Shown: positions 57,912 to 63,662 of the stretch, in pieces
How positions within the stretch are numbered: position 1 is the stretch's first letter
How the letters are laid out: every line of letters begins with the position of its first letter
From: a virus
Length of the DNA: 64,000 nucleotides
Virus record (IMG/VR): IMGVR_UViG_3300042473_001265
Span: 186,001-250,000 of that record
Direction: 5' to 3' (one strand)
Made by a program: the position numbers and the translations under genes
The notes under the pieces: model-generated
Databases searched by the model: none
Told to the model about the DNA's origin: nothing
What the model saw: only the letters and a program-made list of their open reading frames with translations

Positions 57912-58904
57912 ATGGCAACATCACTAGCAGAAATCCGAGCAAGACTCGCAGCATCCGAAGGTAACAACAAAGGTGGTTCATCCACTGGTGGCGATAACGC
58001 AATTTATCCACACTGGAACATGGAAGAAGGATCATCAACTACACTCCGTTTCCTCCCCGACGGCAACACCAAGAACACATTCTTTTGGCAAGAACGAGCA
58101 ATGATTCGTTTGCCATTCAATGGTATCAAAGGTGAAATGGAATCCAAACAGGTATATGTGCAGATTCCCTGTATGGAAATGTGGCAAGAAACTTGTCCAG
58201 TGCTGACCGAAGTTCGCGGTTGGTTCAAAGACAAAAGTCTCGAAGACATGGGCCGTAAGTACTGGAAAAAACGCAGTTACATTTTCCAAGGCTTTGTGCG
58301 TGAAAATCCAATGGCCGATGAGAAAACTCCGGCAAATCCAATCCGTAGATTCATCATTGGTCCACAACTGTTCACCATCATCAAAGGTGCCCTAATGGAT
58401 CCAGAACTGGAAGAAATGCCAACTGACATTCTGCGTGGCTTGGATTTCCGTATCACAAAAACATCCAAAGGTGGATATGCTGACTACAACACATCAAAGT
58501 GGGCTCGTAAAGAATCTGCTCTGACTGAGGAAGAACAAGCAGCCATTGACACCAATGGTCTGTGGGACTTGAGCACATTCTTGCCCAAGAAACCAGATGC
58601 AGCCGCTGTTAAGGTGATCAAGGAAATGTTCGAAGCCAGTGTTGATGGACAGGCCTACGATGCCGAGCGTTGGAGCGCATACTTCCGTCCAGCAGGCGTA
58701 TCCGCGCCAGCAGGCAGTTCTGATTCGGCACCTGCTGCTCATGTAGCACCTGCGGCAAAAGCAGCGCCCGCTGCGGAATCAGACTTTGACGAAGACGTTG
58801 AAGTAGCAGAAAAATCGTTTGCTGCTGAACCTGTTGCTGCTCCAAAATCAACACAGAAGGCCGAAGACATTTTGGCCATGATTCGGGCTCGTCAACAAAA
58901 GTAA
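57912..58904 (+). CDS. 32: gp32-like single-stranded DNA-binding protein
   Basis: 330 residues: N-terminal SLAEIRARLAA helix, the core YPHWNMEEGSSTTLRFLPDG, FWQERAMIRLPFNG, then SKQVYVQIPCMEMW, and a low-complexity A/P linker to an acidic tail (ESDFDEDVEVAEKSF). Acidic tails recruit partner proteins in this family. The region of the T4 zinc site has only C87 and C95, without the CX2C pair, so zinc binding may be altered or lost. It coats single-stranded DNA in replication and recombination. Confidence 0.92.
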   Translation: MATSLAEIRARLAASEGNNKGGSSTGGDNAIYPHWNMEEGSSTTLRFLPDGNTKNTFFWQERAMIRLPFNGIKGEMESKQVYVQIPCMEMWQETCPVLTEVRGWFKDKSLEDMGRKYWKKRSYIFQGFVRENPMADEKTPANPIRRFIIGPQLFTIIKGALMDPELEEMPTDILRGLDFRITKTSKGGYADYNTSKWARKESALTEEEQAAIDTNGLWDLSTFLPKKPDAAAVKVIKEMFEASVDGQAYDAERWSAYFRPAGVSAPAGSSDSAPAAHVAPAAKAAPAAESDFDEDVEVAEKSFAAEPVAAPKSTQKAEDILAMIRARQQK

Positions 58905-58908
58905 ATTA

Positions 58909-59574
58909 ATGCTATCGCAGTTAGATTGCATTATATTTCCAGACCGCTGTGAGGTAATAGAAATTATACCCTCACAGCGGTATGTTTACCCAATTTTTAA
59001 AAATTGTAGTTCGAGTATATCGGTTGCGGCCAAAAAAAATAAATGGCGCACTTGTCTAAACGAACAAATTAACAAAATTAATAGCATTGATGTAATTTTA
59101 CGAGAACCACAAGATCGTTTGATATCTGGAATCAATACATTTATACAACTCGTCTTACGAGACAATCCTGGTCTTGATCAAAAAACGGTGCAATGGTTTG
59201 CCCAAAACTATTTGTTTTTGAACCGTCACTATTGCTCTCAATTTTTATGGTTAGTTAACCTGGCAAGATTTTTAAATACTGATACAAAATTAAATTTTAT
59301 ATCAATGGATGATGTTCATACAATAACTACGCTTCATAAAAAGCCTAGCGGAATTACACCAGCGTCTGCTGATTTTGTTACCGAGATTAATGAAATAAAA
59401 AACAATGAAATGCATCATCGAATCGATACAATTTTATTCAGATGCATCGGCAAGTCAATGAGCTTTGGTCAACTGCTGCAACATATAAACAACACTGACC
59501 CCACTGCATACAAGTATGTAATTGGACGGAGCCAACAAATATTAAAATCAACTTATGCATTGCCCCAGGCTTGA
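58909..59574 (+). CDS. Sulfotransferase-like protein
   Basis: 221 residues. The stretch VYPIFKNCSSSI (about 26-37) is like the PAPS 5'-phosphosulfate loop (PKxGSTS) of sulfotransferases, and VILREPQDRLISG (62-74) like the 3'-phosphate-binding strand and helix that carry the conserved R and S. Families of this type transfer sulfate to sugars, proteins or small molecules. Four bases after gene 32 and overlapping the next radical SAM gene by 20 bases, so translation is coupled. AT-richer than gene 32. Confidence 0.7.
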   Translation: MLSQLDCIIFPDRCEVIEIIPSQRYVYPIFKNCSSSISVAAKKNKWRTCLNEQINKINSIDVILREPQDRLISGINTFIQLVLRDNPGLDQKTVQWFAQNYLFLNRHYCSQFLWLVNLARFLNTDTKLNFISMDDVHTITTLHKKPSGITPASADFVTEINEIKNNEMHHRIDTILFRCIGKSMSFGQLLQHINNTDPTAYKYVIGRSQQILKSTYALPQA

Positions 59575-60439
59575 TCATTTTGTTCGATTTAATTCAAACG
59601 GAACAATAAGTCGTTGCGGACACATGATTGATCCGGCACAGTTCGACTCATTGGAAGCAATGGATTCTAGTTCCTGGTTGAGTAATATACAAGAACAATT
59701 TAATAAAGATATTTGGCCCAAAGAATGTCATCGTTGCCAGGAGATTGAACAAAAAAATCTTAGCAGTATACGAATGTATGCCATCGAAGTTGATCAAGCA
59801 GAAACACAAAGAGACTACTTACAAGTAGGTGGTGTGCTGGATAATATATGCAATGCTGCATGTCAGACGTGTAATCCAGAGTGCAGTACTCGTATCGGAG
59901 CACTGGCCGGGAAAAATTTTCCCATAGTAAACAACAGCAATCAATTTTGGAATCTTCCACAAGAACGCATTGTACATCTGGACATCAACGGCGGCGAGCC
60001 CAGCTACAGTAAAAATTACAAACGATTACTTGCAAATCTTCCACCAAATTTAAAGACACTGAGACTCAATACAAATTGCAATGTGGTGTTAGACGAGTTG
60101 ACAGATATAGTCTCCAAAGGAATAGAAGTCACAGTCACTGTGAGTTGCGACGGAATTGAGTCAATGCATGAATTTATGCGTTGGCCAATAACATGGGATA
60201 CCTTTTATAAAAACTTAATAACATACAAAAGTATGCCGGTCAAGTTAAATCTATGGACCACTGTTAGTGTATTAAATGTCAATGACTTGCCTAACATACA
60301 GGCATTTGCTCGGGATCATAATATAGATCATAGCTATGCCTATCTTAAACACCCATATGAATTGTCAGTGGACAATACAGACATAGCAGCAAGAAACAAA
60401 TACATACAAAAACAAAAAGAACTCAGGGGCATTGAATGA
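59555..60439 (+). CDS. Radical SAM protein, short, N-terminal auxiliary cysteines
   Basis: 294 residues. Auxiliary cysteines C3 and C21 (C-X17-C), C58 and C61 (CX2C), radical SAM motif C99, C103 and C106 (ICNAACQTC), and GGEP (INGGEPSY). It ends about 90 residues earlier than the other N-terminal-twitch enzymes here, so the end of the barrel may be reduced. Second gene of the cassette between 32 and uvsX; four-base overlap with the next. Confidence 0.82.
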   Translation: MHCPRLDHFVRFNSNGTISRCGHMIDPAQFDSLEAMDSSSWLSNIQEQFNKDIWPKECHRCQEIEQKNLSSIRMYAIEVDQAETQRDYLQVGGVLDNICNAACQTCNPECSTRIGALAGKNFPIVNNSNQFWNLPQERIVHLDINGGEPSYSKNYKRLLANLPPNLKTLRLNTNCNVVLDELTDIVSKGIEVTVTVSCDGIESMHEFMRWPITWDTFYKNLITYKSMPVKLNLWTTVSVLNVNDLPNIQAFARDHNIDHSYAYLKHPYELSVDNTDIAARNKYIQKQKELRGIE

Positions 60440-60909
60440 AATATTATACTCTAGTAGAGTGCGCCGACGCACAGGTCATTGCTGATAAGATTTATAACTT
60501 CTTAGAGACTCAAACGGATCTATTAGAAAAAATAAATTTTGGTTGGAATTTTATTGATTGCAACGCAGTGCTTGTTCATGTGCCAGAATTGTTTGAGTTT
60601 TTTAAAAAGAACAAACTAGTACCAAGAAATGCAGCCATTACCATAATTGAAACCAACAAACATTTATCTCGCCATATTGACGAGTTACCAGTTGTAGCAA
60701 AAATGAATTTTCCTGTAATCAACACTCAAGGCTGGTCCAATCGTTGGTATGTTGATAACAATTTGGTTGAAGAATTACAAGATATGCCTGCTCCAATTGT
60801 GTTCAATTCGCAAGTTGAACACAGTGTAGAACTGACACATGCAACTGAATTTCCTAGAATCGTTGCCAGTTTTACATTCCATAACGAACCATTGCATCTA
60901 CTACAATGA
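60436..60909 (+). CDS. Cassette hypothetical protein, jelly-roll/2OG-oxygenase-like
   Basis: 157 residues. The second half reads FPVINTQGWSNRWYV, then PAPIVFNSQVEHSVE and RIVASFTFHN, a strand order with one clear histidine that resembles the double-stranded beta-helix of some 2-oxoglutarate oxygenase-like or cupin proteins of marine phages. A full iron-binding HxD...H set is not evident, so it may be a binding or non-catalytic partner. Overlaps both neighbours by four bases. Confidence 0.5.
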   Translation: MKYYTLVECADAQVIADKIYNFLETQTDLLEKINFGWNFIDCNAVLVHVPELFEFFKKNKLVPRNAAITIIETNKHLSRHIDELPVVAKMNFPVINTQGWSNRWYVDNNLVEELQDMPAPIVFNSQVEHSVELTHATEFPRIVASFTFHNEPLHLLQ

Positions 60910-61445
60910 AAATAGCAGTAACTGGACATACCGCAGGAATTGGCATGGCGCTGAGTGGTCAACTGACCAAGCAAGGCCACGAAATTGTTGGTCTCAGCAA
61001 AAGACATGGCGATAACATACGCAACATACCTAAAATTTGTGATCAAATTGAACCTTGTGACATGTTCATTAACAATGCGCAAGCTGGGTATGCACAAACT
61101 GAACTGTTGTTTGAAATGGCCGATCGCTGGGCAGGAACCGGTAAACATATTTTGGTAATTTCGACCATAATGACACAACAGCCTGTGTCACCATTGACCG
61201 GGTTAGATATGGATCATTATCGTGTGCAGAAAATAGCACTCGAAGAAGCAGTAAAACAAATACGCAATCGTAAATTAAAAATAAAAATTACCATTGTCAG
61301 GCCCGGTAACATAGCTACCAGCGCGGACAAAACTGTGCCGCCAGCCGCTGATGTAGACAATTGGGCAAGAACATTGATAAACTTACTCGATACAGCCAAA
61401 AACAATAATTTAGTGATTCCAGACATATCACTAGGACCCATTTAA
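60906..61445 (+). CDS. Short-chain dehydrogenase/reductase
   Basis: 179 residues with the NAD(P) motif TGHTAGIG (6-13), NNAQAG (56-61), a serine in VIST and the catalytic YRVQK (Y105, K109), then the VRPGNIAT loop. This is a compact SDR, shorter than the usual 230-260 residues, lacking parts of the substrate domain. It may oxidise or reduce a sugar or an alcohol made or used by the adjacent radical SAM enzymes. One base before the next radical SAM gene. Confidence 0.85.
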   Translation: MKIAVTGHTAGIGMALSGQLTKQGHEIVGLSKRHGDNIRNIPKICDQIEPCDMFINNAQAGYAQTELLFEMADRWAGTGKHILVISTIMTQQPVSPLTGLDMDHYRVQKIALEEAVKQIRNRKLKIKITIVRPGNIATSADKTVPPAADVDNWARTLINLLDTAKNNNLVIPDISLGPI

Positions 61446-61446
61446 A

Positions 61447-62601
61447 ATGACACCAAAAGATGTATTAACAAATAAACATTTTTGTCCTATGCCGTGGACA
61501 GGGCTAATGTACAATTTTGATGGCAAAGTTAAAAATTGTATTCGCAGTGACACGGCAACCGGACTGCTAGGAAATATTAAAAAAACACCAATTGAAGAAA
61601 TACTATTGGGCCCTATCAATGTAACTAAACAAACAAACATAACAAATAACAAATCGGCAGCTGGTTGTCATACCTGTTATGATTTAGAACATGGTAAAGA
61701 AGGGCTTGACATTATCAGTGATAGAATTTTTTACATAAGAGAATTTAAAAAAACGCCACTGGACACTTACCGGCCCGGCAATTTTGACTTACAAACCATT
61801 GACGTGCGGTGGACCAATTTGTGTAATTTTGCCTGTGTATATTGTAGTGAACAATTCAGTAGCAAATGGGCCAACGAACTCAATATCAAAATAGAAACTC
61901 CGGCTGATAAACAATTGTCAGACTTTCGGGAATACATCTATCGTCATGCTAAACAACTCAAACATGTGTATCTTGCCGGCGGCGAACCGCTGCTGATGAA
62001 GGAAAATTTAGAATTACTTCAAGAATTGAATCCCGATGTCAATCTTAGGATAAACACTAATCTTAGCAAGGTAGATACTGGAGTGTTTGATGCTGTTTGT
62101 AGATTTAAAAATGTCCATTGGACCGTAAGTGTAGAAACTACTGAAGATGAATTTGAATACATACGATTTGGTGGCCGATGGCAGGATTTTTTAGATAATC
62201 TAAACACAATTAGAAAACTAGATCATAAGATAAGTTTTAATATGTTATGGTTTTTGCTAAATCATGACAGTGTTTTTGATTGTGTAGATTATTTAAAAGG
62301 ATTGGGATTTCATAACAATAGCTTTGTGATTGGAGCACTGCTAGGCCCTGATTACCTAAACATTAGACATTTACCGGAAAATGTGTTAAACTCATTGAAG
62401 TTAAAATTAGAATCACGAATCAATGAGAATCCTGGATATCTACTTGAAGACAGTTATCAGAACATGCTACACTATATAACGCAACCAATTGAAAAGAATT
62501 TAACAAATTCGTTTGATCAATTAGCAATAATGGATCAGCGGCGTGAAGTAGACAGCAGTAAAATTTTTACAGAATTATATACACTCAAAGAAGGAAAGTA
62601 A
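61447..62601 (+). CDS. Radical SAM protein with N-terminal twitch-like domain
   Basis: 384 residues. Auxiliary cysteines C13, C31, C74 and C77 (FCPMPW start, C-X17-C, CX2C), radical SAM motif C126, C130 and C133 (LCNFACVYC), and GGEP (LAGGEPLLM). Very similar in plan to the enzymes at 1565 and 51067. Last gene of the cassette, two bases before uvsX. Confidence 0.87.
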   Translation: MTPKDVLTNKHFCPMPWTGLMYNFDGKVKNCIRSDTATGLLGNIKKTPIEEILLGPINVTKQTNITNNKSAAGCHTCYDLEHGKEGLDIISDRIFYIREFKKTPLDTYRPGNFDLQTIDVRWTNLCNFACVYCSEQFSSKWANELNIKIETPADKQLSDFREYIYRHAKQLKHVYLAGGEPLLMKENLELLQELNPDVNLRINTNLSKVDTGVFDAVCRFKNVHWTVSVETTEDEFEYIRFGGRWQDFLDNLNTIRKLDHKISFNMLWFLLNHDSVFDCVDYLKGLGFHNNSFVIGALLGPDYLNIRHLPENVLNSLKLKLESRINENPGYLLEDSYQNMLHYITQPIEKNLTNSFDQLAIMDQRREVDSSKIFTELYTLKEGK

Positions 62602-62603
62602 TC

Positions 62604-63662
62604 ATGGCAAAACCATTTGACATCTCAAAGTTCCGCAAGGACATCACAAAAAGCATCCAAGGACTCAGCATTGGATTCAATGATCCCACAGACTGGATTA
62701 GCACAGGCAACTATGCACTCAACTATCTAATCTCAGGAGACTTCAACAAAGGCATTCCACTGGGTAAAGTTACTGTATTTGCTGGTGAATCCGGCGCAGG
62801 CAAGAGTTATATTTGCAGTGGCAACATTGTAAAGAACGCACAGGATCAAGGCATCTTTGTTATTCTTGTTGACACAGAAAACGCACTTGACGAATCTTGG
62901 TTACACGCACTTGGTGTCAACACGGGTCCAGACAAGTTGCTCAAACTCAACATGAGCATGATTGATGATGTTGCCAAAGCAATCTCCACATTCATGACAG
63001 ACTACAAAGCACTACCAGAAGAAGAACGCATGAAAGTTCTGTGGGTCATTGACTCATTGGGCATGTTGCTGACTCCTACTGATGTCAATCAGTTCGAAGC
63101 CGGTGACATGAAAGGTGACATGGGTCGTAAGCCCAAAGCACTGACAAGTCTTGTTCGTAACTCTGTCAACATGTTTGGCAGTTACAATGTGGGCTTGGTG
63201 GCCACAAACCATACCTATGCCAGTCAAGACATGTTTGATCCTGATGACAAGATCTCCGGTGGACAAGGCTTTATCTACGCAAGTTCAATCGTGGTTGCCA
63301 TGAAAAAAATGAAACTCAAAGAAGATGAAGATGGCAACAAGATCACTGATGTCATGGGCATCCGTGCCGGTTGCAAAGTGATGAAAACACGCTATGCCAA
63401 ACCGTTTGAAGGCATGCAGGTCAAGATCCCTTACTCCACTGGTATGAGTCCGCATTCGGGACTGGTTGACCTGGCAGAGAAGAAAGAGATTCTCAAGAAA
63501 GAAGGCAACAGTTTGGTACTTGTTACCAGCGACGGCGAAATTATCAAACAGTTCCGCAAAAAGTGGGAAGCCAATGAAGGCGGATGTTTAGATAAACTGA
63601 TGGCGGACTTTGCCAATCAGAAAGAAGAAAAACCGGTACTCGAAACAACAACGGAGGAATAA
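62604..63662 (+). CDS. uvsX: UvsX RecA-like recombinase
   Basis: 352 residues. Walker A GESGAGKS at 61-68, Walker B strand KVLWVIDSLGML, then GLVATNHTYASQDMF and SGGQGFIYASS, as in T4 UvsX. It pairs single-stranded DNA coated with gp32 with duplex DNA for recombination-dependent replication. Immediately preceded by the radical SAM cassette, so the cassette is probably expressed with recombination genes. Confidence 0.93.
   Translation: MAKPFDISKFRKDITKSIQGLSIGFNDPTDWISTGNYALNYLISGDFNKGIPLGKVTVFAGESGAGKSYICSGNIVKNAQDQGIFVILVDTENALDESWLHALGVNTGPDKLLKLNMSMIDDVAKAISTFMTDYKALPEEERMKVLWVIDSLGMLLTPTDVNQFEAGDMKGDMGRKPKALTSLVRNSVNMFGSYNVGLVATNHTYASQDMFDPDDKISGGQGFIYASSIVVAMKKMKLKEDEDGNKITDVMGIRAGCKVMKTRYAKPFEGMQVKIPYSTGMSPHSGLVDLAEKKEILKKEGNSLVLVTSDGEIIKQFRKKWEANEGGCLDKLMADFANQKEEKPVLETTTEE

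Follow-up and report, generated by a model that had tools for sequence, protein, structure and literature searches.

In the uncultivated virus record IMGVR_UViG_3300042473_001265, five genes lie between those for a gp32-type single-strand DNA-binding protein and the UvsX recombinase. The window analysed here is bases 186001-250000 of this 340,172-bp record. The genes encode a predicted sulfotransferase (A), a radical S-adenosylmethionine (SAM) enzyme (B), an oxygenase-like protein (C), a short-chain dehydrogenase/reductase (SDR; D) and a second radical SAM enzyme (E), in the order gp32-A-B-C-D-E-uvsX. They almost certainly form a single functional module, conserved and carried in a slot whose contents are exchanged. 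Selection has preserved the block, which is conserved, nearly always occurs whole or not at all, is cleanly exchanged and, in another phage lineage, is assembled in a different order. The explanation that we favor, with a probability of about one half, is that this is a phage module for the tailoring of a small molecule or glycan, comprising an A+B pair, a D+E pair and an often-absent C, and acting on a sugar-like substrate.

The gene block and its conservation

The block and its flanking genes are placed in the window as follows.

57912-58904, + strand: gp32-type single-strand DNA-binding protein, left flank (phrog_1192, E 4e-68)
58909-59574, + strand: A, predicted PAPS-type sulfotransferase-fold protein, 221 aa (AlphaFold model match, invariant motif residues)
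59555-60439, + strand: B, radical SAM enzyme with N-terminal twitch-like cysteines, 294 aa (NF033640, 140 bits, below cut-off; CxxxCxxC)
60436-60909, + strand: C, probable 2-oxoglutarate (2OG)/Fe(II) oxygenase of Asp/Asn-hydroxylase type, 157 aa (PF05118, E 0.014, below cut-off; HxD...H)
60906-61445, + strand: D, SDR, 179 aa (PF01370, E 2e-7, above cut-off)
61447-62601, + strand: E, twitch-domain radical SAM enzyme, 384 aa (NF033640, 239.6 bits; PF04055, E 2e-16; PF13186 SPASM)
62604-63662, + strand: UvsX recombinase, right flank (phrog_97, E 1e-65)

These coordinates, and the phrog_1192 and phrog_97 flanks, bear out a preliminary description of this DNA that had placed five open reading frames (ORFs) between gp32 and uvsX. 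It had also described every junction as overlapping or separated by at most two bases. This is so inside the block, where A and B overlap by 20 bases, B and C by 4 and C and D by 4, and where gaps of 1 and 2 bases separate D from E and E from uvsX, but the gap between gp32 and A is 4. The block is indeed richer in A and T than its flanks, its G+C fraction being ~0.32-0.42, compared with 0.42-0.49 in gp32 and 0.41-0.46 in uvsX. A consensus scan for forward terminator-like sites found none in the gp32-to-uvsX stretch of the window. Along its whole length the block is 99.9-100% identical in contigs of other samples, which excludes its being an artefact of assembly.

Viral contigs of IMG/VR were scanned for relatives, and all counts from these scans are among the matches listed, up to 80 loci per scan. 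Scanning with E gave 228 relatives, and the order gp32-A-B-(C)-D-E-uvsX was found nearly throughout the best 80. Dozens of contigs of uncultivated jumbo phages have the block at this junction, the arrangement for which a search of viral metagenomes had been proposed. When D was the sole query, the scan led to this block again, at the same site. Two further scans used only the flanking genes as queries and so were not biased in favor of the cassette; among their 96 unique junctions, 77 were cassette-free (28 of them empty), 17 had ABDE and 2 had AB. The co-occurrence of AB and DE in these flank-selected junctions has a Fisher p of 5e-17, although this overstates the independence of the data because contigs related by descent were counted separately.

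Taking all 139 unique junctions listed, and scoring E genes abutting uvsX by tblastn, we find 47 with ABDE, 6 with ABCDE, 6 with DE, 2 with AB, 1 with E and 77 with none. C is therefore present in 6 of the 53 that contain ABDE. In the six DE junctions the AB position is occupied by a different P-loop-like protein (identified by eye) and a different radical SAM enzyme of the NF033640 family. The view of the cassette as a single five-gene unit consequently needs some revision; the genes are conserved together, but the unit is really two sub-modules, AB and DE, with C often absent.

The median ratio of non-synonymous to synonymous substitution rates (dN/dS) is 0.21 for A, 0.087 for B, 0.087 for D and 0.077 for E, compared with 0.13 for gp32 and 0.05 for uvsX. 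These ORFs are not chance occurrences, since dozens of contigs have them at this position, with catalytic residues kept and dN/dS far below 1. Pairwise distances of the cassette genes agree better among themselves (rho 0.40-0.66) than with those of the flanking genes (0.26-0.48).

An exchangeable slot and a second lineage

A sister phage (IMGVR_UViG_3300042892_002380, loci L099 and L174) lacks the cassette, while its gp32 and UvsX proteins are 98% and 100% identical to those of the window (93-94% at the DNA level). The similarity of L099 to the window stops at the gp32 stop codon (58904) and restarts at the uvsX ATG (62604), so that these are the left and right breakpoints of the cassette. The preliminary description had regarded absence from closely related genomes as evidence against the cassette. 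Such absence is literally what is found in the sister phage, and we read it as a mark of exchangeable cargo, not as the lack of a module.

Sixteen empty spacers, 56-76 bp in length, contain a GC-rich terminator-like hairpin with, in most of them, a run rich in T after it. Compensatory changes occur at 6 of 8 base pairs of the hairpin. Examples are L099:2284-2353, L104:6929-7000 and L119:4263-4324. The window has no such spacer, A beginning 4 bases past gp32.

Other phages hold other enzymes between gp32 and uvsX, which identifies this junction as an exchangeable cargo site. The cargo includes a formyltransferase, a hexapeptide transferase, an AMP-binding enzyme, a desaturase, an Asp_Arg_Hydrox oxygenase, other radical SAM enzymes and proteins of no recognized kind. 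The commonest alternative (cluster c3, 16 junctions; e.g. L101:749-1672) is a protein of ~305 aa that belongs to no recognized family and that looks, by eye, like the product of a gene at 137951-139054 of the record, within a cluster at 132-150 kb. A uvsX tree of 126 rows shows 20 changes of state for the full cassette (mean of 29 after shuffling) and 29 for the presence of any cassette gene (mean of 40.5 after shuffling). These counts are approximate, as they predate the recovery of some E genes by tblastn, and they indicate that the cassette tracks the phylogeny only loosely. The module also shows the gp32-uvsX junction to be a site for cargo within the replication region.

The same families are clustered in a second phage lineage. 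Homologues of C, D, A and B lie together in L280, a contig of a 'Porticoccaceae' metagenome-assembled genome (MAG) that encodes a phage-type helicase, and viral contigs related to it have the order primase-helicase ... C(-)-D-(E)-A-B-SGNH-like. All five families are present in L344, where D-E-A-B form one run, E is 48% identical and C is divergent. A profile scan with B, taken with the earlier loci, gave at least 85 loci (a few contigs being counted twice), and A is directly upstream of B in 84. In L394, L411, L412 and L415 the order D-E-A-B is found within the gp32-uvsX slot itself, i.e. the two halves are swapped. Little or no variation is seen in the catalytic residues across the lineages. 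This independent assembly in a permuted order is the strongest evidence of joint function. Together with the conserved block and the empty site of the sister phage, it strongly supports the earlier proposal of an acquired functional set.

We note that the phage of the window has a radical SAM gene followed by one for a P-loop-like protein (L098:5395-7154, record 274395-276154) downstream of its own primase-helicase, the site at which the second lineage holds its C-D-E-A-B block.

It might be argued that the five are neutral or selfish genes that hitch-hike without a joint function. The slot is a hot spot for cargo, the uvsX tree shows 20-29 changes of cassette state, and a sister phage does without the cassette. 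Such genes would not be expected to show purifying selection with retention of catalytic residues, near all-or-none presence, and assembly in a permuted order in another lineage, and we regard this explanation as the most improbable of those considered.

The five proteins and their probable chemistry

The identities given in the preliminary description hold, namely a sulfotransferase, two radical SAM enzymes, an SDR and a jelly-roll-type protein. A has no match in Pfam or NCBIfam searches. Its AlphaFold model (pLDDT 83.5) matches a BFVD model of a phage 'Sulfotransferase family' protein with E 3e-13 and TM-scores of 0.78/0.84, so that the structure prediction suggested earlier agrees with the assignment. 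Comparison with the PDB listed the sulfotransferases NDST1, Teg12, Teg14 and StaL, none significantly. K31, R65, P67, R70, S73 and G74 are shared by all of the 32 sequences compared. They are of the type that forms the loops binding 3′-phosphoadenosine 5′-phosphosulfate (PAPS), with a lysine loop for the 5′-phosphosulfate (5′-PSB) and R...S for the 3′-phosphate (3′-PB). In a wider set across the lineages the equivalents of R65 and R70 are invariant, and the lysine is present in at least 90%. Structure search and motifs together support A as a predicted PAPS-dependent sulfotransferase.

E scores 239.6 bits with NF033640 (N_Twi_rSAM), above the curated cut-off of 170, and its CxxxCxxC cluster motif is invariant in 32 sequences; it also matches PF04055 and the SPASM family PF13186. 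B scores 140.3 bits against the same cut-off, and is treated as a shorter relative of NF033640, not as a member. Its CxxxCxxC (C99, C103 and C106) and four further cysteines (C3, C21, C58 and C61) are invariant in 32 sequences, and the CxxxCxxC is also kept across the lineages. The model of B (pTM 0.82) has a likeness, at low TM-score, to SkfB, viperin, anSME and BlsE.

In D, the nucleotide-binding motif TGxxxGIG (G7, G11, I12 and G13), S86 and Y105xxxK109 are invariant in 31 sequences. With this motif and the Ser-YxxxK signature, D is by sequence a short SDR. The match of C to PF05118 (15.7 bits) is below the Pfam cut-off of 22.6, but the HxD...H iron triad (H80, D82 and H129) and R141 are invariant in eight sequences of the two lineages. 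At the level of motifs C is probably a 2-oxoglutarate oxygenase of Asp/Asn-hydroxylase type. No membrane segment was noticed by eye in A-E, and all five proteins are likely to be cytosolic.

If the substrate is sugar-like, a route can be proposed. B and E would form a substrate radical, leading to oxidation, dehydration or epimerization, with the twitch cluster accepting electrons. D would then reduce the resulting ketone with NAD(P)H, giving net epimerization or deoxygenation. C, where present, would hydroxylate, and A would transfer sulfate from PAPS. The product could decorate the host envelope (excluding competing phages, for example) or the virion. AprD4 and AprD3 of apramycin biosynthesis, a radical SAM dehydratase and an NADPH reductase (PMC5461906), offer a precedent; the likeness to E and D would be one of action, a nicotinamide-dependent enzyme reducing a sugar on which a radical SAM enzyme has acted, and homology is not claimed.

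A sugar-like substrate is suggested by the formyltransferase and hexapeptide transferase among the slot cargo, and by a carbamoyltransferase beside the main NF033640 cluster of the genome. Decoration of a surface or of the virion is favored because the alternative cargo and the other radical SAM cluster of the genome are partly enzymes of tailoring type, and because the cassettes of pelagimyophages sit in islands that have been read in that way (PMC7029224). Some observations weigh on the other side. Family searches found no glycosyltransferase among A-E, those of the genome lying elsewhere (glycosyltransferase-like genes, by eye). The nearest solved radical SAM structures include enzymes acting on peptides and nucleotides (SkfB, anSME and viperin), and for this reason the class of substrate cannot be read from the fold. 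Lastly, in each lineage the module has genes of replication as neighbours, a position that would suit a substrate of nucleic acid no less than it would simply reflect the timing of expression.

B and E might instead be SPASM/twitch maturases that modify a phage or host protein, with C hydroxylating a side chain and A sulfating. SkfB and anSME are the best solved relatives of B by both profile and fold, and Asp/Asn hydroxylases (PF05118) are generally known to act on proteins. We consider this unlikely, though less so than the other alternatives, since B and E match NF033640, a family with no assigned function, far better than they match any maturase equivalog, and an SDR would be unusual in a maturase cassette. 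A cassette for a ribosomally synthesized and post-translationally modified peptide was rejected, as the tightly packed block has no spare precursor-peptide ORF between A and E in a search confined to the block.

Hypermodification of the phage DNA or of a nucleotide would account for the location of the module in both lineages, at gp32-uvsX and downstream of the primase-helicase, and two of the enzymes that the model of B resembles, viperin and BlsE, act on nucleotides. The genome also encodes a QueE-like protein elsewhere (L094:5482-6357, by eye), itself of the radical SAM type. This must be set against the structure search, in which A is a sulfotransferase and not a nucleotide kinase. Moreover, no protein of thymidylate-synthase fold (PF00303) was found in the 340-kb record, while control genomes were positive, so that the classical route via hydroxymethyl-deoxynucleoside monophosphates is absent and was rejected. 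Modification of DNA or of a nucleotide seems to us less probable again than that of protein.

A further proposal is that B or E makes a modified nucleotide in the manner of viperin, in counter-defence or in defence against superinfection. PADLOC matched E (3e-10) and B (5e-4) to pVip. Only ~100 residues, within the radical SAM core, are covered by these matches; with NF033640 the match of E is at 6e-71, compared with 1e-9 for viperin, and E reaches 37.6 bits with the viperin equivalog against a cut-off of 180. Viperins also lack the N-terminal twitch. We therefore rejected viperin as the identity of E, the similarity being confined to the core domain, and a role of this kind is most improbable, if marginally less so than mere hitch-hiking.

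Returning to the tailoring of a sugar-like compound, it is possible, a little short of an even chance, that this is a new phage biosynthetic system making a sulfated, radically rearranged sugar or nucleotide that the enzymes of the host do not produce unaided, with interchangeable halves and occupying slots in the replication regions of two lineages. There is a substantial chance that its chemistry is new.

Relation to known phages and genome context

No match to A, B, C or D was found by tblastn at 1e-5 against 50,697 phage records. Among named phages E matched only the Vibrio phages K566 and K567, at 25% identity. Scans of 84,980 genomes for a bacterial source, each using two patterns, gave nothing for E, a weak negative, and a single hit for B. 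This was L280, which is probably a phage contig binned with the MAG because the B match adjoins a phage-type helicase. A bacterial source of the cassette was rejected on these scans, with the same reservation. Within the open-licence literature of PubMed Central we found no description of the exact five-gene set, nor a paper giving phage radical SAM genes a job.

Phages rich in radical SAM and Fe-S proteins, and radical SAM cassettes in hypervariable islands, are already known (PMC5332604, PMC7029224). The host-recognition islands of pelagimyophages contain lipopolysaccharide-type glycosyltransferases and radical SAM gene cassettes (PMC7029224). Like the block described here, these cassettes vary among close relatives in genomes with surface-glycan genes. 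They lie beside tail-fibre genes, from VrlC to gp14, whereas the block is fixed at gp32-uvsX or the primase-helicase and, unlike them, is a fixed set that includes a sulfotransferase, an SDR and a 2OG oxygenase. The T4-like marine phage TARA_ERS488813_N000010 has 12 radical SAM genes, and there are phages that encode IscU (PMC5332604). The present record shares with these the multiplicity of radical SAM genes and phage-encoded Fe-S assembly; no sulfotransferase/SDR module was found described in that paper, and the word 'sulfotransferase' is absent from its text. The best cultured match of gp32 (52% identity) is in the Arenbergviridae (Pseudomonas phages Ettore and PA5oct), where gp32 and uvsX are also close together, but the interval contains two unrelated hypothetical genes and no cassette.

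The 340-kb record contains 13 matches to NF033640, 10 of them above the cut-off. Five of these genes, at 139-147 kb, adjoin the carbamoyltransferase (PF16861/PF02543). By eye, the surrounding cluster (L095, record 132-150 kb) includes amidinotransferase-, 2OG- and glycosyltransferase-like genes and adjoins tail-fibre-like genes. Related contigs have from 0 to 14 NF033640 matches; some are in cassette-free contigs, so that NF033640 enzymes are not peculiar to the cassette. The record also encodes IscU (PF01592), two A-type Fe-S carriers (PF01521) and an Fe/Mn superoxide dismutase (L098:14382-15085 and L093:8161-9026), which plausibly supply its many radical SAM enzymes.

Phages with at least a dozen radical SAM genes are already known, and the module offers a place to learn the chemistry of phage radical SAM enzymes. 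It is tractable because it is compact, strongly selected and nearly all-or-none, with a natural pair of phages with and without it. Nature has supplied both these sisters and half-module variants, in the form of AB alone and DE with a replaced front half. For the NF033640 enzymes, Vibrio phage K566 is a possible laboratory entry point; it has six genome matches to the family, with a radical SAM cluster at L092:6852-11254 and a PagP gene nearby.

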